NCBI RefSeq assembly: GCF_036556685.1
Contig: NZ_CP140614.1
Span: 1,798,001 to 1,862,000, forward strand
Direction: 5' to 3'
Length of the DNA: 64,000 bases
Source: Sulfurospirillum sp. 1612
GTDB lineage: Bacteria > Campylobacterota > Campylobacteria > Campylobacterales > Sulfurospirillaceae
This document shows, in pieces, positions 48,041 through 64,000 of this stretch. Position 1 is the stretch's first letter, and every line of letters begins with the position of its first letter. The notes beneath the pieces are model-generated. The model ran no database searches. It was given only the letters and a program-made list of their open reading frames with translations, and was not told the origin of the DNA. The translations under genes were made by a program, and so were the position numbers.

Positions 48041-49558
48041 ATGTCAACGCATACAGATGTAGAGAAACTAAAAAAAGTCCTGAATAATTTCACGGTTCTT
48101 TACATAGAAAAAAATGAAAATTTAAAAACCAAAGTCGGTTCGTTTCTTTCTAAAATCTTTTCGAAAACCTATATAACATCTCATGCGCAAGAGGGTTTGG
48201 AACTTTTTGAACAACACCACCCTGCATTTGTCATATCATGTATTCAACTCGAAGATATGGATGGCTTGAAACTTGCAAAAAAATTACGAAATATCTGTCC
48301 AAAAGTCAGGATTATCATCACCTCATCAAAAGATGACAAAGACCATCTACTTGAAGCGATTAATCTACATGTTGATGGTTATTTGATGAAGCCTTTTCGT
48401 ATCAGCAGTCTAGCCAAGCTTTTGCATTCGCACTCAGAAAAGATGCTAGAGGAACTCAATCATGTACAATTCAATCAATACATGTACAAAATATTTAACA
48501 AGCAACAAAATCTCATTGCCCTCATCCGAGACGATCATCTTGTCCTCACCAATGAAACCTTTTTAAACTTTTTTGGTCTTAAAACGCAGTTAGAGTTGAG
48601 AGAAAGAGCGATGAAATTAGATGAAATTTTGTTGCCACATCCAAATTTTTTGTATCGTAAAGAAGATGATACAAAGAGTTGCCTGGAAAAAATCAAACAA
48701 AATATCGACCGATTGTACAATATCAAGATCCATGATACAGAGAACGTAGAACACCATTTTATCTTGAAACTAGCGAGTATTAACGAAAACAATGATGCTT
48801 ATATTTTGTCATTGACCGATATCACACCGCTCAATCTCCTTGGTCTTTATGCTAAAAAAAGAATAGAAGATGATACGATTCTCTCTAACAAAGAGACGAT
48901 TTTGCATCTTTTTAATGCCGCCAAAGAAGCCGATGCGACGATTAAATTGTATAATTTCTATAAAGGCCTCATGATATCGAGTGATGGCAAGATTATCGAG
49001 ACTTCGCTCAATCATTATACCTTTAAGACATCAATAAATCAGCTGAAATCTGTGAGATTTGAACAAAAAACCGTCATACATTGTGATCTGTTTCCGTTTG
49101 ATATAGAATCAAGCGACATCAAAGATATTAACTTTGCAAAGCAGACGATAGAAGCCGAAAATTGCTCGATGTTAAAAACAACACCGAGTGAGAGAAAATC
49201 ACTGATTTTGGAACCTGATGAACACCATAGTGTTTCATTGGTATTTCGAGAAAAGATTTATGACCAAGAGATGTACATCAAAGATATGTCTAAAGAAGCC
49301 GTTAAAATCTCTCTACCAAGTATTCCAGAAGGCATGGCTGAGGAAGATGAAATCTATATCAGCCTCTCTTTTAAAGACCAACCAAAGCCCACTATCATCC
49401 GCACCAAAGCCCGCGTTTTTAAAATATTACCACATAAAGAAGCATTTTATATCATTGCTGATTTTGTCCCAACAGCACCCTCACATAAGGCTATTGTCAA
49501 TTATCTAATATCTCGACAGATGACGCTTGTACGGGAATTTAAAGGCCTCAGTATCTAG
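48041..49558 (+). CDS. Degenerate receiver domain protein with PilZ-like C-terminus
   Basis: 505 aa, no signal peptide. Residues 15-130 have a response-regulator fold (VLYIEKNEN, ITSSKDD, GYLMKPF with K117), but the phosphoacceptor position in VISCIQLEDMDG is C67, not Asp, and the acidic pair is E23-K24. The middle (about 150-350) resembles a PAS-like region (LIRDDHLVLTNETFLNFFGL). The C-terminus (about 385-500) has ERKSLIL then IKDMSKEAVKISLP, close to PilZ RxxxR and D-x-S-x-x-G but with substitutions. A phosphorylation-independent regulator possibly related to c-di-GMP; function uncertain. Confidence 0.65.
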   Translation: MSTHTDVEKLKKVLNNFTVLYIEKNENLKTKVGSFLSKIFSKTYITSHAQEGLELFEQHHPAFVISCIQLEDMDGLKLAKKLRNICPKVRIIITSSKDDKDHLLEAINLHVDGYLMKPFRISSLAKLLHSHSEKMLEELNHVQFNQYMYKIFNKQQNLIALIRDDHLVLTNETFLNFFGLKTQLELRERAMKLDEILLPHPNFLYRKEDDTKSCLEKIKQNIDRLYNIKIHDTENVEHHFILKLASINENNDAYILSLTDITPLNLLGLYAKKRIEDDTILSNKETILHLFNAAKEADATIKLYNFYKGLMISSDGKIIETSLNHYTFKTSINQLKSVRFEQKTVIHCDLFPFDIESSDIKDINFAKQTIEAENCSMLKTTPSERKSLILEPDEHHSVSLVFREKIYDQEMYIKDMSKEAVKISLPSIPEGMAEEDEIYISLSFKDQPKPTIIRTKARVFKILPHKEAFYIIADFVPTAPSHKAIVNYLISRQMTLVREFKGLSI

Positions 49559-49574: not shown

Positions 49575-51515
49575 TCATTTGATCTTCACTTCTACGACAT
49601 CACTTTCTCTGATATTACCCATCATATCATACGCTTTGAGCTTGTAAAAGTAAGTTCTCTTACCCAATAAATGTTTATCGGTGAAACTGTTCCCTTTTTG
49701 AAAATTAGAAATATTATAGTAGCGCTTGTCGCTACCACTGCTTCTGAATACTTCAAATCCCTTGTAGTCTTTATCCTTGCAACTAAAAGATATCTTCGTA
49801 CCCTCTTTGATCTTTTTCACAGTGACGTTTGTTATCGTGACCGGTTTTAAGTCTAAAGCGTTAATCTTTTGTGATTGATTTTTGGCAGATTCATTGCCAC
49901 TTTTATCCACTGCTGTGATGATATACTCATTGATACCTTTTTGAGGTTTGGTATCTATAAAGTGGTTACGAATCAGTGGCTTTGTATTGAGTTTGATGAT
50001 ATTCTTGCCTTTTTTTCTATAAAGATTGTAGTGATCAAAATCATACACGATGATTCGGTTCCAATCGAGAACAATCTTGTTTGGATATACGATGAACTTT
50101 GTCACTATCGGTTGGGACGGTGGAGTGACATCGGGAAGTTTTATCATGACACTATTTGAAGGGGCACTTTCATTGAAATTTTTATCCACAGCACTCACAC
50201 GATAATAATAAACATGGCGACTCAAGGTTTTTGGGCGTTTGTGCACAAAAGTCGTCTTAGATATCGCTTCTTTAGTGACCATCGCCCACTGTTTTGCCGT
50301 TTTATCCATAGACATATATATTTTGTAACCCAATAAATCTTTCGCTTTCACACCACGCCATGAAAGCGTCACCAAGCCTGCCTTTACGCTTGCTTTGAGA
50401 TTCAAAGGAAATGGCGGTGGCGTTGCATCTTTGGCATATGCGAGCATCTTCTTTGATGCTTTGGATTCTCCTTGCATATTGATAGTAGTAATGTAGTAGT
50501 AATAATTTTGTCCCAACTTAAAATTTCTATCAAAGAAGACCGCTTTTTTGATGGGTTTTTGATTGAGCTTGATAAAACCTCCACCGTAATTGGTGCTTCT
50601 ATAAACATTGTAGCCCAAAATTTTGTCGATTTTCCCCCAGCGAAGGATAATCTGTCTGTCGCTGTTTTTGAGAAAAATATCTTTCACTATCTTGGGTTGG
50701 GTATTGATGCTTTTTTTCACATTGATATGATAGGTCGGTTTTCCTTTTTTGCCAAATATATCGATCTTTTGAACATAATAACTCGCTTCTTCTTTTGGGG
50801 TAAGATGCAAATCACGAAAGAGTGTTTTATGCTTTAGTGCAAAAGATTTATCTATAAATATTGGATTTTGATTGAGTTTCTGGAATCTATTTTGCGTCTT
50901 TTTCTTCCTATAAATATCATAAAAAGCACTCGAATTAGCAATATCCCAATTGAGCAAAACGCCATGATTCGTTCTGGTACCTTGAAGCCACTTGATGCTA
51001 TTGTTTCTCTTATAATACGCGGTATCAACTAAAATGATTTTTTGCAGTATCTTTTTCCCATTGTTTTCTAGTATAATTTTATAACGATATTTTGTATCTT
51101 TTTTGATATTAGGATCACTAAAATATTGTCCAAGATTTTTAGCAAACTGCAAATTTTTTGCCAATTGTATGATTCTAAAGACATTAATCTTTTCATCTAT
51201 CTGACGAATTCGTATCCTATCATCGAGCGTCTTGGCCCCTTTATAAGGATAAAATTGAAAGATATAATCCTCAGAATACCCATCTCTTTTAAGCTTTTCA
51301 TAGGATATCGGCTTAACAATGCCTATAAGCTTTTCAGGCTCACCTTTGGCACTTCTATATATCTTATAAACATTGGCACTAGAGTAGTTTTTGACAATCC
51401 ACTTGAGTTCGATTTTATTTTTTTGTACATCAGCATAAATTCCAATATCATTTTTGATCATTTCAGCTTGAATACTCATCGCCAATAACACCAATATTAG
51501 TATAAATTTCTTCAT
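49575..51515 (-). CDS. Secreted fibronectin type III repeat protein
   Basis: 646 aa from ATG 51515 (AGGAA upstream; an in-frame GTG at 51521 overlaps the previous stop). Signal peptide MKKFILILVLLAMSIQAE. About six FN3-like modules: repeated LSWRGVKAKDLLGYKIYMS, LDWNRIIVYDFDHYNLYRK, then ITAVDKSGNESA-type ends. No anchor or catalytic domain is seen. Last gene of the surface locus, coupled to the giant repeat protein (stop and start 3 nt apart), so probably acts with it outside the inner membrane. Confidence 0.8.
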   Translation of the reverse strand: MKKFILILVLLAMSIQAEMIKNDIGIYADVQKNKIELKWIVKNYSSANVYKIYRSAKGEPEKLIGIVKPISYEKLKRDGYSEDYIFQFYPYKGAKTLDDRIRIRQIDEKINVFRIIQLAKNLQFAKNLGQYFSDPNIKKDTKYRYKIILENNGKKILQKIILVDTAYYKRNNSIKWLQGTRTNHGVLLNWDIANSSAFYDIYRKKKTQNRFQKLNQNPIFIDKSFALKHKTLFRDLHLTPKEEASYYVQKIDIFGKKGKPTYHINVKKSINTQPKIVKDIFLKNSDRQIILRWGKIDKILGYNVYRSTNYGGGFIKLNQKPIKKAVFFDRNFKLGQNYYYYITTINMQGESKASKKMLAYAKDATPPPFPLNLKASVKAGLVTLSWRGVKAKDLLGYKIYMSMDKTAKQWAMVTKEAISKTTFVHKRPKTLSRHVYYYRVSAVDKNFNESAPSNSVMIKLPDVTPPSQPIVTKFIVYPNKIVLDWNRIIVYDFDHYNLYRKKGKNIIKLNTKPLIRNHFIDTKPQKGINEYIITAVDKSGNESAKNQSQKINALDLKPVTITNVTVKKIKEGTKISFSCKDKDYKGFEVFRSSGSDKRYYNISNFQKGNSFTDKHLLGKRTYFYKLKAYDMMGNIRESDVVEVKIK

Positions 51516-51517
51516 GA

Positions 51518-54500
51518 TCACATTCCTAACTTAAAATTTTGTATCACTCCGCCGTCAAAACCACCAGGGATTGCGCCGCCAGGGATTCCACCAGGGATGC
51601 CTCCACCAGGGACTAAACCTCCTCCTGGTGTTGAACTTCCCGGATTATCAAAAATATTCTCTTGCAATGATGCTTTATCTACCATATCATTGACTTGGGC
51701 TTCCCTTTCTTCTGCTTCTGCTGTGGAGTAGGCATCCCCATTAACAAAACCAATATTCTCAATCGTAAATAGGTCTCGTTTCGTTCCACCTTCATCTACA
51801 TAATAGGTAATATTAGCACGTCTTAATGCCATTATATCGTGCCCTTCAAAACGCACTTCAGGAAGTCTTCCATATTTACCTTTGTCATTCCAATCATTTT
51901 CTTTTATCACCGTTCCTAAACCTTCTACCTCCCATGTTGTCGTGATTTTATATAAAATACTATGATGGGTAATGCCAATATTATCTAAATCTGAATAAAT
52001 TTCAATCCTCGCTTCATCACCACGTGCTGGATTGACGTTATAACTTATACTTAGGCTTGGATGCAATTGGTCTTTCATCTCATCAAACCGTCTTTCTTCT
52101 TCTTTAAGGATGTTGTTCCCACTGACAGAAAACGTTGAGTAATAGACAATTTGATTTTTACTTTTATCCGTCACGGTAATATTGTAGGCATTGTTGGTAT
52201 AATAAGAATAACTCTCATCATCGCCCCCCTCACGTGAACCAGAGCCTCGTGAACTCCCATCATAATATTTCCCTAGATTGACATTCTCAAGCTTCGTTTT
52301 GCTGATTCTTGAGGGAACGGTAACGGGGGATGCATCATTTCCCACCGCTCCATCTACTTTATACCCATTGAAAGGATTCAAATACTCTCCTTGTGCAGTT
52401 TTAAAAGTCTCCATCACACTCCCATCACTATTTCTGACACAATAATGATAAATCCTAAGAGGGGTTGCGGGCACAAAATAAGCCCTCAAATGCTCACTAT
52501 TGTAGCTATAAGTTCCACTAATCGCTTCATTTTTAGAATTTGCAACCTGTACTTCATAGTTACTAAAAAGCTCATTGTCCTCTTTTAAATATTTCATAAT
52601 TTCTTTGTATTGTATGGTCACAGGTTCTTCTTCAAAGACATTCGTTCTACCATTTTCAGGAGTAATACTGGCGACAATCTCGCTAAATTCTAAACGATTT
52701 AATTTTGTCGTCTTGAAATCTTTTTTAAAATTCTCAGTCGTATCTTCTGTATTATCATGATAGTGAAGTGTTCCACTTAGGGTATACTTACTATCAGGAG
52801 CGAGGGGAGATGATGGTATCACAATAATCTCTTTGGGCTCTGTTTTATATGACTTATCGATACCAACAGGCACATCGACTCCGGTACTTTTTTTGGTTAA
52901 TTTGACATCTTCGAAACTCGTGATACTCTTATTGAACATTGAGACAATTTTAAACTCAGGCATCACGCTAATATCAATTTCATTATAAGGCTCTATATGG
53001 TCAAACAATAGTTTAGATTTTTTTTGCCCTCCATCAGGACGACCACTTCCGTAAATGTAACCTGAGAAATGAAAGGTTTCACCCAACGCAGAAATTCCAA
53101 CCTTTCCCCATAGGTATGAGGGGTTTGGTGTGGCAAGTTCCATTTTGACATCAGCACCCAAAGAAGTATCCAAACCGGCATACCCTACAGAAAAGGTCGC
53201 GCCAGCTTCTGCATACATCAGCATAAAGAAAGGGTTATACCGCATCAACGCACCCGCTTCGGCATCAACCTCCGCACTAGCCCAAGGATTTGGACCAGTC
53301 CAATCTAATGACCATTTTTTGTAGAAATGATATCCAAGGCCAAAAGCCAACTGTCTGGTATCAATCATGAAATAACCACTCGCATCGAGCCCAAGAACCG
53401 TTATAGTGATTGGATTGTTTGTAGCATTGGAAAATCCTTCGATGGCTTTTTGGCCCACAAAGATATGTTTCTCTCCTGTGGATAATAAAATATCGACGGC
53501 ATTATTCTCAGCTTTCAGTCCAATGCCAAAAAATGTGATATTTGCCGATGCACTGATATGCAGTGATGCTGGAGAATTTGCATACTCTATGCGTCCTGAC
53601 ACCTTTCTATTTTCAGGTTCACCCTCTTTGGTACTGATGATATAAGTGCGCTCAGCATTGATGGTAAACTGACCTGCTGTATCAATCATCATCTCGACAT
53701 TACCATGCCAAGTATAGCCCATATCTGGGGTTCCAAGAAGTGCTGAAAAGATGATGATGCTATTGTGTTCTCCACTTGGAGCAAAAGTATAACTTTTCCC
53801 CACCTTCGTATAGCTCATGTTGTAAACAACACCACCTCCGAGTCCATAGATGCTCAAAGGTCCCAAAGGAATCCCACTGCCACCAATACTTCCAGCTGCT
53901 TTTGCCATCCAATAAAAGCCTTTTTCTGGATGTTCTCCTATCTTAAATTCACCCTCAACACTAAAAACATTGGCAAGTTTTAACTGCAGTGGTGACAAAG
54001 TCCCAAAGCCATTACCATAAATCGGATCGTTTTTATACCAAGCAATCTCTCCATTAAAGGTAACACCGGGATTGGATACTTTTATCTTGATACTATCCAC
54101 ATCAACATCGCCATCACTATAAAGTTTTAGCCCCGCTCCCGCTTCTGCAACACTTGCAAGTGAGAGCACCCCTTTGGTGCTAACAAAAAGTTTATTGCTT
54201 GAAAAACCAAGACCCAATTTTTCAATTGAAAGCGAAAATCCGCCAAGGCTTCCACTCGCCCCACTGACATCAAATTCCATACCGGCACTCTCAATACTAA
54301 TACCCTCTTTTGAAATCTTCAATCCTTGATACTCAAGTTCGCTGGCCACCGAAAAGATAGCATTGGTCGGTTTAATCGTACCATTAAAGCTCATCCAAAA
54401 ATCATCAAATGATGGAGCCACACGCACAGATGGAAAGGTCATCTTTGCAAAATCTGGTATTTCAATCGCTTCTAATGCATTGGTATTGACTGTAAAATTT

Positions 54501-57500
54501 TTAATACCATTTCTATCAATTACCGAGCTTAGCCCGACATGTAAATTTTTACTAGAGCCTAAAAAGTCACTCTTATCGTATGTTAATCCCGCACTTCCCT
54601 CGATATTTGCAGGAGTAAATGTCGCGCTTAATGCACTCAATTTCAATCCATCGACCCCAGGGATAGCAACCGTTGTTCCATCGGCTAACTTGATGGTTCC
54701 ACTTAAACCACTACTTGAGATTTTGAAACTGTTGAGCTCTAAAGCAAGATTATCGATGCCTTTGTAGCTAAAAATTCCATTGAGTCCAATCTTGATATCT
54801 TCAAGAGAACTCTCAAGATCAAAAGAGCCACTGAGATTTTTAAAGATAAAATTATCATTATTTATATGTAGATCATGAGGCATGCTCCATCTGACATCAG
54901 AGTCAACCAAACTCAATAATGCTTTGGCTTGAGCACTTGATTCTGTAAAGATCGGACTCAAATCCAAAAATCCATCAAACGCATTAATCGCAAGCGGAAT
55001 ATTTTTGGTCGAGTCAATATGTACCCCCACTTTGCTTAGGACAAGTGAGGCATGTCCGGCCACAAGGGTCATCACTTTAGCCGGTGCGAACGCTGCTGAT
55101 ATATCACCGGCAAAACCACTACTGCTCACTTCCAAATTTCCAATCGTAAGATTTCCGACATTAAACTGTGACAGCAATGCTGCATGCACTACTGAATTGC
55201 CTTGGAGCGACACTTTATATTTACTTCCTACTTTTTTTACGATGCCACTCACTCCGCTTAAGACCACAGAGTTATCCCCTTTTTTATAAGTAAAGACTTG
55301 ATTTGTTGAAAAAGAGTAGGTTCCCGAACTTTGATATGTAAGCGCAATGGGTTCCACATTACCATCAAAAAGTTTACCAAAATAGAGTCTGCCATCAGCT
55401 TGATCAATGCCGCCACTGCCACTGCTGCTCGCATGACCGTCTATATTTGAAAGCTCAATTCTGACATCTTCACTTCTCGTTCCCAAATCAAGAATTGTAA
55501 GTTCAACTGCTGCCCCTTCAAATGCCATATTCCAATAGATACCTTCTCGTGATATAGTAGCATCATCAAGCGTGACGTGTCCAAGTGTCGCGGTACCAAT
55601 CTGATAATGCGTAAAATCTGCTGCCGCATCAAAGGTTATGATTGGATTCAATAGATTATTGAGATCAATCGTGCCACTGATACTCGTCACACTGACATAT
55701 TTATTCGCATTGTTTTCATCTTGTAATAAAGTATGAGAGCTTTGCAATGACCATTTATAAATGCCTTTTTGCGTTTGTGTATCGCTGATATTTTGCCCTA
55801 TTTTTTTGAAATCACTGGGACTTCTTCGACCTCTAGTGGGCATGGTTCTACCCTTTGTTGCTTGTTGCAATGCATCGTCTACTGTCGTGCTAGAGAGTGG
55901 AGATAATGCAATAATCTCGCCATCTAATAAAGAGCCAAAATTAATATTGGCATTGATATCAGATAATCCTATCTTAAAATCATCTCGCGTCAAAGTGAGA
56001 CTTACAGTAGGAGTCGTACCGCTTGGAAATTCTACTTTTACATTTTTTTCCGGCCAAACATCAAAACCATTGAGACCGATACTCAAATCTCCTTTGAATC
56101 CCTCTTTTGAAATCGTCGAGTTCTCCAAAGAGACCGCTGTAATATTTTCTAAAATTCCACCATTGGCACTCAGATCAACCGAACCATTCACATTCAAAGT
56201 CGGATTTTTTAAATCGGATAAATCAATAGTTCCTAACATCTCTTTGATTTTAAGGGAAGTCCCTTGTATGTCATGAATCCCGCTTAAATTCCAGCTATAA
56301 ATATCACCACTTAAACTCGATAGGGTCGCTTTAGCATTATCGAGCAAATCTCCGAAGAATACATCAGCACTGAAGTCTTTGAATCCGATTTTCAACCCAC
56401 TGGTAGTAACACTGAGTTTGATCATTGGTGGTTTATCCTGATTAAAGAGAAGTTTGACATTCTTATCCTTCCAGATATCGACATCACTCAGTGTAGCAAA
56501 TAGTGTGGCTTCAAAACCACTTTTTGAAAGCATCGCATTTTCGACTCCTGCATTCGTAACATACTCAAATACAGTACCATAATTATGTAAATCTGCCAGG
56601 GCATTAAACGCAATGGAAGGATTGCTGAAATCACTCAAATCGATACTACCACTGAGATTTTTAAGTAACACACTACTACCTGCTAGCAAATGCTCTCCTG
56701 TGATGCTCCAAGTGTAGTTTTGTGCCGTATTGCTTAACTCTTGGACTTTATCTACAGCGGAGTTAACACCATCGAGATTGGGGGCACTACTTTGTATCTC
56801 AGCGGTTGCATCAGCGAGTAATGTACCAAAATTTAGATTTGCATGCAGATTAGAGAGCCCCATTTTAAAGTCATTTTTACTAATAGCGATATTGAAAGTC
56901 GGATCTTGCGTAAAGTTAAGCTTCACGCCTTTTTCTGACCAAATATCAACACTGGTAAGATGCGGGCTTAAACTCGCGCTAAAACCCTCTTTTGAGATAT
57001 CTGCGTTCATATTGATGGCATCTACAGAGGTTAATAACCCACCATATTCATGTAAGTCTGCCGTCGAGGTAAAGTGTATTTGAGGGTTTTCCAATTTGGA
57101 AATATCCAGCGTACCACTCAAAGACGTCAATAACACTTTCGAATCATTGATAAGTTTTTTTGAACCGCTGATTGCCCAATCGTACTGACCATTGATAGAA
57201 GCCCCCAGATTATCGGTAATGGCATTAAGTTGTGCCTCTGCTCCTTGCAGTAAATCTCCAAAATACAATTTGGCCGCACCACCACTCAATCCAAGAGACA
57301 CTTCATCTGCCGCTAATGCCAACTTAATAGTCGGTGGCGTGATAAACTTCATCCTCACGCTGTTTTCAACGCTTCCTCGATCCAATATCGTAATAGGGTC
57401 CGATTCCCCACTGGCACTAATACTACCCACAAAACCTGATGGCGACACATCGAGATGCACAGAAGCTTCTTTAATCGCTTGCAAAAGAGGATTGCTTATG

Positions 57501-59581
57501 ATAGTGAGATCAAGGGTACTGTCCAAATGTACGGATCGGTTTGTTAAATCAAAACTTGCATTGATTCCCTTGAGTGAAAAATTACTTCCTAATAGATAGA
57601 CTTTTGTAGACGTTGGAAAACTCAAAGTATATTTTTTGGCATTGTCGATACTATTACCGAGTGTGGCAACAACATGTGAAATCATGCCGCCTGTGCTGTT
57701 TTGGGCACCTTGTAAGAGATCTCCGAAATCCACCTTAGCGTTTAATTCTCCAAAATCAAAATCAATGCCATTTTGGCTAATATTAACCCCAACCGAAGGA
57801 GTGCCCGTCACTTTTAAAATGACATCTTTACCCGGACCTCCTCTATCTAAAAGCGTGATATCATCAATTCCGGCATCTGCTTGCAAATGGGCACTAAATC
57901 CTTGTGAAGAAATCGTCGCACTGATGGTTGAACCACTGAGTTTTTTCAAAATCGGATCGCTATAATCATCTAAATTAACACTAATATTGCCAAGGGAGAT
58001 GATTTTGGTATCATAATTAAATTTAAAGTTTCCATCCAATCCCTCTAGAGCAAAATTGCTCCCTAACAGATAGGCTTTGGAAATATTACTAAAATTGAGA
58101 GAAAATTCTTTTGTTTCATCTAATGTGAGATCAATATCTGCTTTGAGAGAGCTAATTGCTCCCCCTGCTTCGCTTTTTGCGCTTTGAATAATATCACCAA
58201 AGTCAAGCGTGGCGCTGACACCTGAGAGATCAAATGAAGGCATACTCTGGGTATCTGCTATATTGATAGAAAAACTCGGAAGAGTCTGTGATGAAAAATC
58301 TAGTTTGACATCTTTTCCGACACCGCCCCGATCCAAAATCGTCATTGATGGCAATGCAGCAGCTAGCGTAATCGAGGCACTCATACCATTTTTTGAAATA
58401 TTCGCACTCAAAGTTGCATCGCGCATCTGTTTCAAGATAAGATTATCATACGCGCTAAAATCAACCTTGGATACCAATGATAGTTTCGGAAGCAGATAAT
58501 TAGAGATATCTAAGCCCAGATTAAAATCACTCAATTTTATCTTTTTACCCAACAGATAAGCTTCAGCATTATTCATGGTTAGCGCATAGCTATCGGTTGC
58601 ATTTTCATCTAAGTTTTCAAGGGTTGCTGTGATTGCGTTTGCAGTATCTGAGACATCTGTCAAAAGGGTACCAAACGCTAAAGTAGCATTGAGACCACTC
58701 ATATCTATCTGAGGAAGGTTGTCTCCTATATGATAACTGACATTGACATTTCCAGAATTTATTGCCAATTTAACATTTTTTGAAGGCCATATTGTGATAT
58801 CTTTCTGACTGACAGGGATATCGAGACTAAAAGTATTAGGCAATAATTTACTCGTATCAGAGAGATCAATACTAGACAATGTACTCAAAAATCCCTTTAA
58901 AGTAATCTTCCCTTCTACTTTATTATTAGCAGGAGTCGCTGAGATGACTATTTTGCTAATTGCAATATCGGCAATATCAGAATTCAAAGCCAATGGCGTA
59001 TTGTAGGTAATATCGCCCATGGTAATATTGTGATCTCTCACGTGGAGATTGCTAAAGTCAACCGGTATGGTGTTATCAATATTAAAGTGATCCAGGTAGG
59101 GAATCGTAATCGTACCACTTCCTGAAATCTTGCCATCTGCAATCGCAACACTTGCATCAAGTGTTAATTTAAAACCTGCGATATAATATATCCCCTCCAC
59201 GCCGATAGTATCTGTTTTTTCTTCGCTACTTTCTTTCACAACTCTCAATGAAAATTCATAGGATTGTTCCAATTGTGGGGTGAAACTCCATGTCCAAATA
59301 CCCGTTCCTTTTGCCCGACTCCACGTCGCTCCTCCATCGGTTGTGATTTCAACATGCAATTTTTCTACAGGGGTATTTTTATCATCACTCTCCAAAAGCC
59401 CTCTTACAATGACTCTACCATTTTTTAAATCCTCTTGATAAAATTCAATCTCATGAGGTAAGGAATCAAATTCTCTACCATTGATTGTAATTTCATCTAC
59501 AAAACCTATATCATCGGCATTTACATAAGTATTGGCCCAGGAAAAAACTGTAAAAATCAGTAATAATAAAAAAGCTTTCAA
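51518..59581 (-). CDS. Giant secreted repeat protein (2687 aa), unknown function
   Basis: Signal peptide MKAFLLLLIFTVFSWA. Residues ~25-130 hold an Ig-like module (EITTDGGATWSRAKGTGIWTW). From ~180 to ~1560 runs a beta-rich array with a recurring F-G-(D/T/S)-L-L block at about 304, 462, 618, 776, 918, 1076, 1217, 1403 and a weaker one near 1538. Each unit also has SKEGF-type and DLS-NP-type strands. Region ~1900-2200 (SIYGLGGGVVYN, ASGYFMIDTRQLAFGLGYHF) recalls the beta-rich DUF6603 style, weakly. Two SbsA-like Ig modules lie at ~2225-2400, and the tail is Pro/Gly-rich (PGGGIPGGIPGGAIPGG). Cell-surface or secreted; role unknown. Confidence 0.75.
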   Translation of the reverse strand: MKAFLLLLIFTVFSWANTYVNADDIGFVDEITINGREFDSLPHEIEFYQEDLKNGRVIVRGLLESDDKNTPVEKLHVEITTDGGATWSRAKGTGIWTWSFTPQLEQSYEFSLRVVKESSEEKTDTIGVEGIYYIAGFKLTLDASVAIADGKISGSGTITIPYLDHFNIDNTIPVDFSNLHVRDHNITMGDITYNTPLALNSDIADIAISKIVISATPANNKVEGKITLKGFLSTLSSIDLSDTSKLLPNTFSLDIPVSQKDITIWPSKNVKLAINSGNVNVSYHIGDNLPQIDMSGLNATLAFGTLLTDVSDTANAITATLENLDENATDSYALTMNNAEAYLLGKKIKLSDFNLGLDISNYLLPKLSLVSKVDFSAYDNLILKQMRDATLSANISKNGMSASITLAAALPSMTILDRGGVGKDVKLDFSSQTLPSFSINIADTQSMPSFDLSGVSATLDFGDIIQSAKSEAGGAISSLKADIDLTLDETKEFSLNFSNISKAYLLGSNFALEGLDGNFKFNYDTKIISLGNISVNLDDYSDPILKKLSGSTISATISSQGFSAHLQADAGIDDITLLDRGGPGKDVILKVTGTPSVGVNISQNGIDFDFGELNAKVDFGDLLQGAQNSTGGMISHVVATLGNSIDNAKKYTLSFPTSTKVYLLGSNFSLKGINASFDLTNRSVHLDSTLDLTIISNPLLQAIKEASVHLDVSPSGFVGSISASGESDPITILDRGSVENSVRMKFITPPTIKLALAADEVSLGLSGGAAKLYFGDLLQGAEAQLNAITDNLGASINGQYDWAISGSKKLINDSKVLLTSLSGTLDISKLENPQIHFTSTADLHEYGGLLTSVDAINMNADISKEGFSASLSPHLTSVDIWSEKGVKLNFTQDPTFNIAISKNDFKMGLSNLHANLNFGTLLADATAEIQSSAPNLDGVNSAVDKVQELSNTAQNYTWSITGEHLLAGSSVLLKNLSGSIDLSDFSNPSIAFNALADLHNYGTVFEYVTNAGVENAMLSKSGFEATLFATLSDVDIWKDKNVKLLFNQDKPPMIKLSVTTSGLKIGFKDFSADVFFGDLLDNAKATLSSLSGDIYSWNLSGIHDIQGTSLKIKEMLGTIDLSDLKNPTLNVNGSVDLSANGGILENITAVSLENSTISKEGFKGDLSIGLNGFDVWPEKNVKVEFPSGTTPTVSLTLTRDDFKIGLSDINANINFGSLLDGEIIALSPLSSTTVDDALQQATKGRTMPTRGRRSPSDFKKIGQNISDTQTQKGIYKWSLQSSHTLLQDENNANKYVSVTSISGTIDLNNLLNPIITFDAAADFTHYQIGTATLGHVTLDDATISREGIYWNMAFEGAAVELTILDLGTRSEDVRIELSNIDGHASSSGSGGIDQADGRLYFGKLFDGNVEPIALTYQSSGTYSFSTNQVFTYKKGDNSVVLSGVSGIVKKVGSKYKVSLQGNSVVHAALLSQFNVGNLTIGNLEVSSSGFAGDISAAFAPAKVMTLVAGHASLVLSKVGVHIDSTKNIPLAINAFDGFLDLSPIFTESSAQAKALLSLVDSDVRWSMPHDLHINNDNFIFKNLSGSFDLESSLEDIKIGLNGIFSYKGIDNLALELNSFKISSSGLSGTIKLADGTTVAIPGVDGLKLSALSATFTPANIEGSAGLTYDKSDFLGSSKNLHVGLSSVIDRNGIKNFTVNTNALEAIEIPDFAKMTFPSVRVAPSFDDFWMSFNGTIKPTNAIFSVASELEYQGLKISKEGISIESAGMEFDVSGASGSLGGFSLSIEKLGLGFSSNKLFVSTKGVLSLASVAEAGAGLKLYSDGDVDVDSIKIKVSNPGVTFNGEIAWYKNDPIYGNGFGTLSPLQLKLANVFSVEGEFKIGEHPEKGFYWMAKAAGSIGGSGIPLGPLSIYGLGGGVVYNMSYTKVGKSYTFAPSGEHNSIIIFSALLGTPDMGYTWHGNVEMMIDTAGQFTINAERTYIISTKEGEPENRKVSGRIEYANSPASLHISASANITFFGIGLKAENNAVDILLSTGEKHIFVGQKAIEGFSNATNNPITITVLGLDASGYFMIDTRQLAFGLGYHFYKKWSLDWTGPNPWASAEVDAEAGALMRYNPFFMLMYAEAGATFSVGYAGLDTSLGADVKMELATPNPSYLWGKVGISALGETFHFSGYIYGSGRPDGGQKKSKLLFDHIEPYNEIDISVMPEFKIVSMFNKSITSFEDVKLTKKSTGVDVPVGIDKSYKTEPKEIIVIPSSPLAPDSKYTLSGTLHYHDNTEDTTENFKKDFKTTKLNRLEFSEIVASITPENGRTNVFEEEPVTIQYKEIMKYLKEDNELFSNYEVQVANSKNEAISGTYSYNSEHLRAYFVPATPLRIYHYCVRNSDGSVMETFKTAQGEYLNPFNGYKVDGAVGNDASPVTVPSRISKTKLENVNLGKYYDGSSRGSGSREGGDDESYSYYTNNAYNITVTDKSKNQIVYYSTFSVSGNNILKEEERRFDEMKDQLHPSLSISYNVNPARGDEARIEIYSDLDNIGITHHSILYKITTTWEVEGLGTVIKENDWNDKGKYGRLPEVRFEGHDIMALRRANITYYVDEGGTKRDLFTIENIGFVNGDAYSTAEAEEREAQVNDMVDKASLQENIFDNPGSSTPGGGLVPGGGIPGGIPGGAIPGGFDGGVIQNFKLGM

Positions 59582-59605
59582 AGCGGCTCCTTCTCAGAGA
59601 TAGAA

Positions 59606-59642
59606 TTTTATAAGCATCATGATAAACATCATGCTTATAAAA
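59606..59642 (-). promoter_or_regulatory. Intercistronic hairpin between beta-barrel and giant-protein genes
   Basis: 12-bp perfect inverted repeat TTTTATAAGCAT/ATGCTTATAAAA with a 13-nt loop that can add three more pairs. It lies 9 nt after the barrel stop and 24 nt before the giant-protein ATG. On the minus strand no T run follows, so it may act as mRNA stabiliser or partial attenuator. Confidence 0.5.
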
Positions 59643-59651
59643 TCTGTTAAT

Positions 59652-61229
59652 CTAGAAATTTAGAGAGTAAGAGAGTTTCCCTCTAAATTGGTTGTAACTA
59701 TTAGTCGCATCATCTTCGACATCATAATGAATCTGTTCTAGCAGCAATCTGATGATTTGTCGTCCTTTTGGGTCCAATCGATAGGTCACTCTAAACTGAT
59801 AGGTACTGTTTTGAGTATCATTGCTGATATCTTGATAGGCATAGCGACTCAGGTAATAAAAATCCAATGCCAATCTTCGACTGTAGTCATATCCCATGTC
59901 CAGCTTGATGCCATAATTATTGTTGACATTACTGGATTTGACTCTTTGATAATTCAATCCCACGGTCACACGATATGATTTTTCTTTATCGATTCTCTTT
60001 TTATATCCGATTGTTGTGCGAATTGAATTTGTGGTCGAAGTATTGAGCGAAGAGTTGTGGTCGGTCAATTTATTGTATTCATACCCCACACCATATCTCC
60101 AGCCATCTTTTCGTCTCACATTCATATCAATACCTGCGGTTTGAGAACCGGTATCGGTACCTCTTCCTTTGGTATCACGATTGGAAAATCGTACATTGAT
60201 ATCCGATCTTTTGATAAAATCGGGACGATATGAAAAAGAGAGATTTTCATAATAGACTCGCTGCGTACCCCCCAGACTTCCATCCAGATTATCGCGTCTT
60301 GCACGCAATCCTAATCTCGCACTTAATTTTTGATTGATTCTCCACGTATTTGAATTTTCAAATTGTTCGGTATCTTGTGGTGCACTGCCAGAGAGCGAAA
60401 TAAAATCTGTGCCAACTCGTGTATAGGTAAAATTACTTCGAATAGATCGCAAATTTGGTTTTGTGAGGACTTTCAATAACAAAGCATTACTCGAAGACGT
60501 GGGTTTGCCATGGGATAAATCATCGGTAGCATCTACGATGGCAAATTGCCCTTTTAGGGTAACATATCTGTTAAATCGCCATCGTCCATCTACGCCGATA
60601 CTCACACCTTTTTTACCCAAATTGGTGCTATTGGTATCGCCAGTGGAGAGATCATCCTGATAAGACGCTGCGCTGATGGCAATCTCTTTGGAACGCTCAT
60701 GAATATATTTTGCTTCAAACGCGCCAGAATATCCCGTCGGTACCTCATATTGGTCTTTCGTATACACTTCTCTCCACAGGCTCTTTTTATACCCTGCAAT
60801 CATCGAATAGTTCCACGTGTGATCTTTCTTGGGCGAAGTATAAACAGCCTTGATACCCTTGACACTACCACCATAAACATAGGGATTATAAGAAGCAGCA
60901 ACATCACCGACTTCTAAACGCCAGATTTTAGTGATGAAATACGCGTGTAAGTACAATAATTCAAATCCATCTTTTTGTATTCTACTATCATTGGTACCCC
61001 GCGCTCTGATATCCACTCCAGCTTGTCCCCCCTGTAGAGGGCCTGCAAATCGCAAGGACAACTCTTCATCATGAGTCGTTCCCTCTTTATCACTCGTACT
61101 AGAGCCACCACTCACATCGATATTTTCAATATAAGCATTCAACCGACCACTCGCTCTCCATTCATCTGCAATATCTGCTGCATAAACTCCTGAGGTTAGG
61201 AGTGATGCAATAATAAGTAAATTTTTCAT
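59652..61229 (-). CDS. Outer-membrane beta-barrel protein
   Basis: 525 aa. Signal peptide MKNLLIIASLLTSGVYAAD. The mature chain is a series of amphipathic strands with alternating aromatic/hydrophobic residues (FYYLSRYAYQDISN, YQFRVTYRLDP, YGVGYEYNKLTD) and ends KLSYSLNF, a C-terminal Phe as used by the BAM insertion signal. No plug or TonB box was seen. Possible export pore or anchor for the giant protein encoded next. Its start overlaps the CARDB protein stop by 4 nt. Confidence 0.78.
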   Translation of the reverse strand: MKNLLIIASLLTSGVYAADIADEWRASGRLNAYIENIDVSGGSSTSDKEGTTHDEELSLRFAGPLQGGQAGVDIRARGTNDSRIQKDGFELLYLHAYFITKIWRLEVGDVAASYNPYVYGGSVKGIKAVYTSPKKDHTWNYSMIAGYKKSLWREVYTKDQYEVPTGYSGAFEAKYIHERSKEIAISAASYQDDLSTGDTNSTNLGKKGVSIGVDGRWRFNRYVTLKGQFAIVDATDDLSHGKPTSSSNALLLKVLTKPNLRSIRSNFTYTRVGTDFISLSGSAPQDTEQFENSNTWRINQKLSARLGLRARRDNLDGSLGGTQRVYYENLSFSYRPDFIKRSDINVRFSNRDTKGRGTDTGSQTAGIDMNVRRKDGWRYGVGYEYNKLTDHNSSLNTSTTNSIRTTIGYKKRIDKEKSYRVTVGLNYQRVKSSNVNNNYGIKLDMGYDYSRRLALDFYYLSRYAYQDISNDTQNSTYQFRVTYRLDPKGRQIIRLLLEQIHYDVEDDATNSYNQFRGKLSYSLNF

Positions 61230-62071
61230 AGAGTAGCACTCTCTTCATTATTGAATTCATCAGATTCAATAATATTATCACTAGGGTCAATCGTAATAGT
61301 AATGGGGCTACTAGAAGGACAAACATAAGCAGGCATGGGTTTTGAAAGAGTTTGAGTTTCCCCTGGCGCGAGATTACCATCATAATTATAGGTAGCATTG
61401 TTGCCACAATAACTAATCCTATACGTAATCGGAGCGATGGCTGTACCTGCTCCAATATTCATAATTTTAAAATATACTTCAGAAACGGATGCATCTATAA
61501 TCGTTACTGTGAGATCTGGCAATGCACCACCTGCGGCAGCAGGAGCACCACTTGCGGTCTGATAGACTTCTTGACCGGCAATTTTTGGAACATCGCGTGT
61601 CCACTCACCCAAACTCTCACCCCAGAGATTATTGCCCGCTAATTCAATCAACTTGTATTGACCATTAATCTCATCAAACAAAAATCTAGAATACCCTACT
61701 TTTTTGATTTGTGTTGTACCATTGGTTACTTCGTAGCGTTTATCCCATTTGACATAAAGATAACGTTTGATGCCATCACTAGTAATTTTATCGACCCAAT
61801 AATCAAAGCTTAGGATATCGTAAGTTCTAAAGTCTTTTTCAATAGCTTCACTAAAAATCATATAGTCTTGAATAAACCGATCCTCTGAGACTAAAGAGAA
61901 AAATCCTTGTGAATCTTGTTCTTCATAATATCCCATGAGTTGCTTAAAGACCTCTTTGACTTTATCATCTCGACTTTGATCCAAAACCACGATGTCTTTA
62001 TCATACTGAGAATCTGCAAAACTCGGCATAACAAACAGTAACAACATCATGAAGACAATATTTTTCATCAT
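61226..62071 (-). CDS. Exported protein with N-terminal conserved domain and C-terminal CARDB domain
   Basis: 281 aa from ATG 62071 (GGAGGG 7 nt upstream). Signal peptide MMKNIVFMMLLLFVMPSFA. Residues ~25-165 form a domain (YWVDKITSDGIKRYLYVKWD) shared with the broken lipoprotein gene upstream. Residues ~185-281 are CARDB-like: PDLTVTIIDASVSEVYFKI, NIGAGTA, LAPGETQTL and SDEFNNEE. CARDB is a cell-adhesion-type Ig module. Translationally coupled to the beta-barrel gene. Confidence 0.72.
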   Translation of the reverse strand: MMKNIVFMMLLLFVMPSFADSQYDKDIVVLDQSRDDKVKEVFKQLMGYYEEQDSQGFFSLVSEDRFIQDYMIFSEAIEKDFRTYDILSFDYWVDKITSDGIKRYLYVKWDKRYEVTNGTTQIKKVGYSRFLFDEINGQYKLIELAGNNLWGESLGEWTRDVPKIAGQEVYQTASGAPAAAGGALPDLTVTIIDASVSEVYFKIMNIGAGTAIAPITYRISYCGNNATYNYDGNLAPGETQTLSKPMPAYVCPSSSPITITIDPSDNIIESDEFNNEESATL

Positions 62072-62105
62072 TTTCTTGCCCTCCCCTTTAATATTTTTAT
62101 CCTTA

Positions 62106-62138
62106 ATATTACTACGAAGGCATTGCAAAAGCATTGCA
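62106..62138 (-). promoter_or_regulatory. Tandem-repeat operator and -10 element upstream of CARDB-protein gene
   Basis: Two copies of CATTGCA (62121-62127, 62132-62138) separated by 4 nt give an 11-bp period, as bound by OmpR/PhoB-type regulators. On the minus strand the TGCAATG repeat is followed after 9 nt by TAATAT (62106-62111), a -10-like hexamer, so the repeats cover the -35 region as a Pho box does. Confidence 0.6.
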
Positions 62139-62232
62139 AAATGAACAAATTGTTAATAAATTGTTAATAAAATGTTAATCTGTGATTATGTGTGTCATTT
62201 TAGAGAAAGTTTTAAAGAAGCGGTTATCATAC

Positions 62233-62269
62233 AATCGGAAACAAAATCATATGTTTTTTGTTTCCGATT
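62233..62269. terminator. Perfect 14-bp hairpin after the broken lipoprotein gene
   Basis: AATCGGAAACAAAA (62233-62246) and its exact complement (62256-62269) flank a 9-nt loop. It lies 20 nt past the lipoprotein-gene stop on the minus strand. The arm itself contains a T-rich stretch but no run follows the stem on that side, so efficiency is uncertain. It would insulate the lipoprotein transcript from the next promoter at 62106-62138. Confidence 0.5.
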
Positions 62270-62289
62270 TTCAATTGATACACTAGAGG

Positions 62290-62772
62290 TTATTGCCAGC
62301 CAGGCAAGCTCTCACCCCACAGTATATCACCTGATAATCCAATCAGTTTATATTTACCTTTGATAGTTTCAAATAATAATCGTGTTGTCCCTGTTTGTCG
62401 ATGCTCTTTCGTATTATTAATGATAGTGTAACGTTTATCCCATCTGACATAAAGATAACGCTTGGTACCATCACTGGTGATTTTATCGACCCAATACTGA
62501 AACCCAAGAATATGATACGTATTAAAATCTTGTTCTATTGCTTCTTGAAAGGCCATATAATCTTGATGAAATCCACGCCGTGAGACAAAGGTAAAGAATT
62601 TTTGTATATTTTGTGCTTGATACTGATTCATCAGTCGTTTAAATGTTTATTCGACTTTGACATAGCTGATGTCTTCTCCTGCAACGATGTTGTTATTTTG
62701 TTGTGGTGTTTTCATGCAACCCCATGAAAAAAATAACAAAAACACAATCATCAATATTTTTTTTATCATCAT
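62290..62772 (-). pseudogene. Lipoprotein paralogue interrupted by one in-frame stop codon
   Basis: From ATG 62772 (AAGGAG 5 nt upstream) the frame reads a lipoprotein signal MMIKKILMIVFLLFFSWGC with lipobox Cys, and continues to KVE. It then meets TAA at 62647-62649 (codon 42). The same frame goes on for 118 codons with TFKRLMNQYQAQNIQKFF and YWVDKITSDGTKRYLYVRWD, closely matching the N-terminal domain of the CARDB protein downstream. A single GAA-to-TAA change explains the break (the paralogue has KVKEVFKQL here). Otherwise intact, so the loss looks recent, unless the stop is read through or is a sequencing error. Confidence 0.75.
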
Positions 62773-62798
62773 TTTATCTCCTTTTTATGAATCATTCC

Positions 62799-62831
62799 AT
62801 CATACTCAATAGACATTGCAAATTCATTGCA
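62799..62831 (-). promoter_or_regulatory. Tandem-repeat operator and -10 element upstream of lipoprotein gene
   Basis: CATTGCA at 62814-62820 and 62825-62831, again 4 nt apart. On the minus strand the repeat is followed by exactly 9 nt and then TATGAT (62799-62804), the same geometry as the second site. It lies 2 nt past the response-regulator stop and 42 nt before the lipoprotein ATG. Confidence 0.62.
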
Positions 62832-62833
62832 TT

Positions 62834-63505
62834 TTAATCCACAAGTACAATGCGGTAGCCAATCGCAGGCAAAGTTTCTATAAATTTGTATTTTAGTTTT
62901 GCTCGCAACCTACTCACAAGTGCCCGAAGCGTATTGACATTATAATCTTTTTCTGGCCAAATATGATTTTCAATATCGTAAAGAGAGACCACCTGATTGG
63001 CCGATTCCATGAGCAATACCAACAGTTCGCTCTCTTTTTTTGTCAATTTTACAAATCCACCCCTATAATAGAGTTGATGCAATTTAGAATCAAAGCGAAA
63101 CTCGTGATCCAATCCAATATCACCTTTTTGTTCCTCTGTATGAGCATTCAAAAACGCGATTTCTATCGCTGCTTTTAGCGCACCAATATCAAAAGGCTTC
63201 ACCAAATAAGCAGATGGGTTTGTCATGATGGCTCTATTGATATCTTCCTCACTATTCAGTGCCGTAATATAAATAATCGGCACATCATGATGCGATTTTA
63301 TCTGTGTTGCCACAGAAATACCATCTTTGGAATCTTTGAGATAGATGTCCATCAATACCAAGTCCGGTTTTGTTTGCGCCTCCAAAGCAATCGCATCATC
63401 AAAATTTGACGCAATGCCAGCAACCGCATAACCTGATGATGTCAGTATCGCAGATAAATCCATCGCCACCAAACTTTCATCTTCCACAATCAAAATCTTT
63501 TTCAT
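62834..63505 (-). CDS. OmpR/PhoB-family response regulator
   Basis: 223 aa. The receiver domain (1-120) has E8/D9, phosphoacceptor D53 in LVLMDIYLKD, T81 and K103 in AYLVKPFD. The C-terminal winged helix (about 135-220) has LTKKESELLVLLME, LYDIENHIWP and NVNTLRALVSRLRAKL, the OmpR/PhoB trans_reg signature. It follows the kinase gene by 11 nt. The CATTGCA tandem repeats next to it are its most likely targets. Confidence 0.9.
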   Translation of the reverse strand: MKKILIVEDESLVAMDLSAILTSSGYAVAGIASNFDDAIALEAQTKPDLVLMDIYLKDSKDGISVATQIKSHHDVPIIYITALNSEEDINRAIMTNPSAYLVKPFDIGALKAAIEIAFLNAHTEEQKGDIGLDHEFRFDSKLHQLYYRGGFVKLTKKESELLVLLMESANQVVSLYDIENHIWPEKDYNVNTLRALVSRLRAKLKYKFIETLPAIGYRIVLVD

Positions 63506-63516
63506 ATCTCAATGAC

Positions 63517-64000
63517 TCATCGAGGAAAACAGATGGTATAGTGGGTATGGTTTTGGCTCACGACATCAATCGTCCCATGAAGTTGGCGCACCACCAAAGA
63601 ATCAACCAATTTCAATCCCAATGTTTTGTCTTCTGTCATACTATTATCGAATCCTTTCCCATTATCAAAAATTTTCAACATATACTGATCTCCCTTTTCT
63701 TCTAAACTGATTTCTATCTCGCCTTTATTGTCATCAAAGGCATATTTCAGAGAATTTAGAACCAATTCGTTGATGACCAAACCAACATAAACAGCCTTAT
63801 TTATCGGTAATCTAGTATCAATATGATAGGAAATCTTGATACTTTGAGTCATAAAACTCTCTTTAATCTCTTCGCACAACTCCCTCATGTAAGAATTCAT
63901 ATCAATGTACTCCATCTCATCTGTTGAGCAGAGCATCTCATGACTTCTTGCAATCGAACTCACCCGTGCTTCCAATTTACAAAACTGCTCGATTGCCGGT
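63517..64000 (-). CDS. Sensor histidine kinase, C-terminal part (5' end beyond window)
   Basis: The frame is open to the window edge; 161 codons are visible (PAIEQFCKLEARVSSIARSHEML at the start, to ICFPR). ARVSSIARSHEMLC resembles the end of the dimerisation region of HisKA_2-type kinases. The ATPase domain has the N box GLVINELVLNSLKYAF and G1 box IFDNGKGFDNS. Sensor domain not visible. Cognate of the downstream regulator by position. Confidence 0.85.
   Translation of the reverse strand, partial: PAIEQFCKLEARVSSIARSHEMLCSTDEMEYIDMNSYMRELCEEIKESFMTQSIKISYHIDTRLPINKAVYVGLVINELVLNSLKYAFDDNKGEIEISLEEKGDQYMLKIFDNGKGFDNSMTEDKTLGLKLVDSLVVRQLHGTIDVVSQNHTHYTICFPR

Follow-up and report, generated by a model that had tools for sequence, protein, structure and literature searches.

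The minus strand at the end of the window, by which we mean the whole 64-kb stretch of DNA analysed here, raises the question of whether the genes lying there form a real unit, and what such a unit might do in the cell envelope. The host genome is one complete contig of 2.38 Mb, assigned through the relatives of its barrel to the Sulfurospirillum family of Campylobacterota. The original prediction placed genes for a kinase, a regulator, a broken lipoprotein, a CARDB protein, a barrel, a giant protein and an FN3 protein head to tail on this strand, and all of them were found. The tight spacing claimed for the last four is also correct: the CARDB and barrel genes overlap by 4 nt, a 70-nt gap separates the barrel from the giant, and the giant and FN3 genes again overlap by 4 nt. 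Sec signal peptides on the downstream products were read by eye from the N-termini. The first of the four genes (61226..62071, minus strand) encodes a secreted protein with an unnamed N-terminal domain, here called X, and a CARDB domain that is present in 10/10 homologues; its likely start is the ATG at 62071, where a ribosome-binding site is visible, giving a product of 281 aa (X-CARDB). Convergent with the FN3 gene is a plus-strand gene (48041-49558) whose 505-aa product has a receiver domain at its N-terminus and an unnamed C-terminal part.

With the barrel as bait, relatives were recovered from the same family, from another family of Campylobacterota (G1009) and from the Desulfuromonadales. 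All 7 uninterrupted loci from Campylobacterota and Desulfuromonadales (this genome, G000, and G305, G1009, G314, G365, G352 and G350) carry X-CARDB, barrel, giant and FN3 protein head to tail in this order, with giants of 2.6-3.6 kaa. The contig-cut loci (G289, G367, G374, G370, G347, G315 and G316) are consistent with the same order as far as it is visible. In G299 the contig ends after X-CARDB, the barrel, a 347-aa FecR-Ig protein replacing the giant and a CHASE2 gene; since the giant is reduced to this short protein, its repeats are dispensable for association with the barrel. The barrel of such loci (type A) was found in 10 of 136 Desulfuromonadales genomes and 5 of 47 Campylobacterota genomes, and exactly these genomes have a strong X-CARDB match. 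Over the total of 183 genomes, a strong X-CARDB match is therefore found in exactly the 15/15 genomes with a type-A barrel and in 0/168 others, the 15 carriers being partly related and not 15 independent events. Because gene order is conserved in other genomes, chance neighbours can be ruled out, and the predicted coherent, undescribed locus is borne out by co-occurrence and constant order. Neither outcome named in advance as counting against it, genes that do not co-occur or a giant that matches a known secretion family, was found when looked for. The literature yielded no system of such composition, and the cassette fits no system tested. We are highly confident that it is both conserved and undescribed. 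Its spread over two phyla and its patchy distribution argue for a unit that was transferred or repeatedly retained. A tblastn search against plasmids gave no match.

No Pfam family matches domain X above threshold, and the profile of X found no relative among PDB sequences. Sub-threshold matches were seen only in proteins of related loci, to SnoaL_2 (0.11) and NTF2_YvbJ (0.88), without a PDB match, and an NTF2-like fold for X is only a reading. The next gene (59652..61229, minus strand) encodes a 525-aa outer-membrane beta-barrel with a C-terminal Phe, whose strands start directly after the signal peptide. Its structure model gives ~26 strands, but with a pLDDT of 57 this model is weak, and both the count of strands and the pore are approximations. 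The barrel profile found no relative among PDB sequences, and Foldseek with the model returned generic barrels only (TM <= 0.37). The Deinococcus S-layer barrel SlpA was among the best of these (TM 0.36-0.37), and a SlpA_C match was seen in one distant homologue; however, this match lies below the Pfam cut-off and no common gene context was seen. The 26-strand barrels LptD and MtrB resemble the cassette barrel in predicted strand number but show no sequence match to it. Both LptD and MtrB depend on a partner protein that sits within the barrel.

The giant (51518..59581, minus strand) has 2687 aa and comprises a signal peptide, an Ig domain, repeats and a beta-rich C-terminal part. Its Ig-like domain (aa 20-118; 59228..59524, minus strand) is of a family also found in the gene beside almost every barrel. 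The repeat array (aa ~383-1342; 55556..58435, minus strand) has a period of ~155 aa, disjoint repeat pairs being used for its alignment, and a Big_5 Ig-like domain follows at aa 2303-2375 (52457..52675, minus strand; E 6e-4, under the Big_5 cut-off). A two-repeat stretch is predicted to be almost all beta (pLDDT 86), and Foldseek with this model matched nothing in PDB or among viral models at E <= 0.001. A confident model without PDB or viral match means that the repeat may be a new fold. As sole query against genome contigs the giant gave no match, and an order-wide scan with it found one close relative only. It has no barrel family match of its own, the barrel being a separate gene, and thus differs from autotransporters in lacking a C-terminal barrel; nor was a C-terminal sorting domain of Type 9 secretion found at the cassette (Pfam, NCBIfam). 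The 648-aa FN3 repeat protein (49575..51521, minus strand) has an fn3 match, and the complete loci encode full-length homologues of it. The barrel, the giant and domain X, three of the four core families, are without a named family above threshold. An assignment to DUF6603 at the locus was rejected, the match being below cut-off.

The regular ~155-aa repeats, predicted all-beta, could also form a long TamB/AsmA-like beta groove, by which the giant would span the periplasm and bring lipid or another ligand to the barrel. Among the matches listed (PDB), a TamB structure had the top query-normalised TM-score (0.19), which is not significant (E = 0.84), and FecR at the N-terminus of relatives would suit such a bridge. 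However, AsmA, TamB or DUF748 family matches occur in 0/7 giants, which sets them, together with the lack of a significant fold match, apart from the known bridge proteins. Moreover, the giant has no inner-membrane anchor, and FN3 and CARDB modules are atypical of such bridges. We consider this explanation improbable.

How the cassette might be controlled is indicated by the genes 5′ of it. The window holds the C-terminal part of the histidine kinase (63517..64000, minus strand; truncated by the window end), whose whole gene encodes 609 aa, extends 1346 nt past the window (L003:3517-5346) and contains 7TMR-DISMED2, 7TMR-DISM_7TM, HisKA_2 and HATPase_c domains. The OmpR/PhoB-type response regulator (223 aa; 62834..63505, minus strand) consists of a receiver and an OmpR-type winged-helix domain (Response_reg 2e-22, Trans_reg_C 7e-16). 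The broken lipoprotein (62290..62772, minus strand), a paralogue of domain X of the CARDB protein, starts its frame at 62772, has the lipobox SWGC and is interrupted by an in-frame TAA at 62649-62647, with the remainder reaching 62290. Between this remnant and the CARDB gene lies a ~220-nt gap with a strong 14-bp hairpin (62233..62269, minus strand; z -4.76) that is terminator-like without a T tract, so the kinase and regulator genes are probably transcribed separately from the four-gene operon.

A tandem direct repeat, TTTGCAATG-n-TTTTGCAATG, with 11-bp spacing lies 43-50 nt 5′ of the X-CARDB start in Campylobacterota. In the window this candidate operator reads TTTGCAATGCTTTTGCAATG (62121..62140, minus strand), 49 nt before the X-CARDB ATG; it recurs exactly in G305 (~44 nt before X-CARDB) and with 2 mismatches in G1009 (~43 nt). 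A second, weaker copy, GCAATG-N5-GCAATG, is found 5′ of the broken lipoprotein (62814..62832, minus strand). These are 2 matches in 64 kb where 0.01 would be expected, and 0/4000 Markov shuffles reached <=2 mismatches for either intergenic stretch tested. No further sites with <=2 mismatches were found in the ~310 kb scanned, and the visible upstream region of G299, whose regulator is not visible, has no operator. By eye, a -10-like hexamer can be read 7-9 nt after the repeat, placing the repeat in the -35 region. Such a layout, a tandem repeat in the -35 region with a -10 hexamer, is known for PhoB-type activators, and the 11-bp-spaced repeat thus has the form of OmpR/PhoB-type operon control, with candidate binding read from the sequence. 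The recognition helix RALVSRLRxKxKYKxIET is near-identical in the three regulators (G000, G305 and G1009). Since the conserved repeat lies 5′ of X-CARDB beside regulators with near-identical recognition helices, the regulator probably activates the X-CARDB operon directly. Adjacent two-component control, as originally proposed, is thus supported by a conserved candidate operator, but the pair itself falls outside the conserved core: a two-component system stands beside the cassette in Campylobacterota only and at none of the 4 complete Desulfuromonadales loci.

The sensors come in two versions. In G305 a FecR domain stands at the start of the giant and the kinase is a CHASE2 sensor; the 347-aa version in G299 likewise has FecR at its start, next to a kinase gene for a CHASE2 sensor. 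The giants of G000 and G1009 begin directly with the Ig domain, without FecR, and the kinase is 7TMR-DISM; neither FecR nor CHASE2 was found in the complete G000 genome. Their joint absence from the DISM-kinase versions suggests, over these four loci, that the two work together. Moreover, FecR on the G305 giant and the G299 FecR-Ig protein adjoins a periplasm-facing CHASE2 kinase, suggesting that the giant's N-terminus, where FecR is present, stays periplasmic. The G289 giant (L009:1-5215) has kept the ends of FecR and lost its core in frame, and its kinase is not visible. CHASE2 fragments in G289 were left out as evidence for or against this pattern, being part of a separate FecR-OmpA-CHASE2 locus type. 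Separate FecR loci (with an OmpA-like or TPR protein) and CHASE2 loci were seen in L042, L043, L045, L046 and L070; in the last of these (G365) the barrel cassette is flanked immediately upstream by a FecR gene and its OmpA-like companion, in divergent orientation.

The closest described system is the BiofilmReg operon of Burkholderiales, which comprises a response regulator, a LysM-FecR protein, a CHASE2 histidine kinase and a DUF4136 lipoprotein; the ligands of CHASE2 domains are described as unknown (PMC5192318). The common ground is the regulatory layer only. An OmpR-type regulator accompanies a FecR protein and a CHASE2 kinase in G305, and G299 is alike apart from its regulator, which is not visible; BiofilmReg too implies joint action of FecR and CHASE2. 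However, it has no barrel, X-CARDB, giant or FN3 protein, and the window genome shares with it the OmpR-type regulator but has a 7TMR-DISM kinase in place of FecR and CHASE2. Such operons control biofilm in Burkholderia (PMC5192318), and FN3, CARDB and Ig modules are frequent in surface adhesins, so that the locus might be read as an ordinary two-component-controlled adhesin locus, with a giant adhesin and a porin-like barrel linked by chance. Given that barrel and X-CARDB occur together in every carrier genome, that X-CARDB is absent from all others and that the genes stand in the same order in both phyla, the barrel is no incidental neighbour, and this explanation is very improbable.

Distant barrels stand in loci of a second type (type B), with the barrel, an Ig-X protein and then at least one 900-1400-aa protein ending in an X-related domain. 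Over the loci with a readable downstream neighbour, the next gene after the barrel encodes an Ig-domain protein in 33/36 and an X-domain protein in 3/36. Type-B loci L019, L020, L078-L082, L084, L085, L111 and L113-L116 have one to four long secreted proteins, and in many of the Ig-X proteins the signal peptide is followed by a KWWIFG motif. Near 5 distant barrel loci there is an ECF sigma factor-like gene (Pfam-confirmed in 4/4 examined, with a subtilase in 2/2 examined); genes for an ECF sigma factor, a putative anti-sigma factor and a subtilase were seen near the distant barrel-X loci L119, L120, L122, L123 and L125. The sister species G299 (L018, type A) and G303 (L020, type B) have their barrel locus in the same dapD/ABC-F neighbourhood, and the G000 locus lies ~6 kb from the corresponding ABC-F gene. 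The G303 barrel (L020:10585-12173) is split into ORFs of 213 and 314 aa, possibly by a frameshift or assembly error. Between mrp and dapD, L018:1832-6712 encodes a 1626-aa multi-domain sensor with, by eye, a solute-binding-like domain and a phosphatase-like end.

These wider relatives bear on the idea of a new outer-membrane secretion route, in which the barrel is the exporter, X and Ig are recognition tags, and the giant or the long type-B proteins are cargo released or displayed outside. Several 900-1400-aa X-ended secreted proteins per barrel in the type-B loci of G516, G751, G601 and G303 would agree with it, as would Sec signals on all products. The Type 11 secretion system (Slam, DUF560; PMC12282271), in which a single outer-membrane barrel likewise stands beside surface proteins, offers a works-like analogy. 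However, the cassette barrel has no DUF560 (Pfam, NCBIfam), ~26 predicted strands and other cargo. Moreover, no POTRA, Omp85 or other recognised periplasmic domain was found in it, which separates it from two-partner secretion and Omp85, and no known exporter family matched (Pfam, NCBIfam). FecR on the G305 giant places its N-terminus in the periplasm, and the type-A X domain sits on a separate protein. A surface location of the giant and its export through the barrel are what we infer at most, and the secretion route is rather unlikely. Slightly less doubtful, and still tentative, is a new pathway of outer-membrane assembly or secretion, with a ~26-strand barrel serving X/Ig-docked proteins under varied regulators, type A having one new-fold giant with an X-CARDB adaptor and type B several X-ended proteins.

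We favour regulated envelope assembly with X-CARDB and the Ig domain as partners of the barrel, to which we give a probability of roughly 0.55; these domain types adjoin the barrel in nearly every version. The 7TMR-DISM kinase would sense an envelope signal and phosphorylate the OmpR-type regulator, as their domains suggest. The regulator would then bind the tandem 11-bp direct repeat PhoB-style and activate the X-CARDB-barrel-giant-FN3 operon. The barrel would be embedded in the outer membrane, and X-CARDB and the Ig domain of the giant may dock on or plug its periplasmic side. The giant's repeats would build an extended beta structure that the barrel holds, with the FN3 protein decorating or stabilising this structure. 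In the FecR relatives only, FecR may report the assembly state to the CHASE2 kinase as a feedback loop; in G000 and G1009, without this sensor pair, the DISM kinase would substitute.

With three of its four core families unnamed, a repeat that has no solved relative and a gene order shared by two phyla, the cassette is a compact unknown of the Gram-negative envelope that lends itself to testing. Its conserved operator opens a direct way to learn when it is produced, and the DISM-kinase versions, which lack both FecR and CHASE2, are natural evidence for a FecR-CHASE2 pair. If the wider pathway is real, the same core would stand under a DISM or a FecR-CHASE2 two-component system in Campylobacterota and perhaps under an ECF sigma/anti-sigma system with a subtilase in other Desulfobacterota-type genomes.
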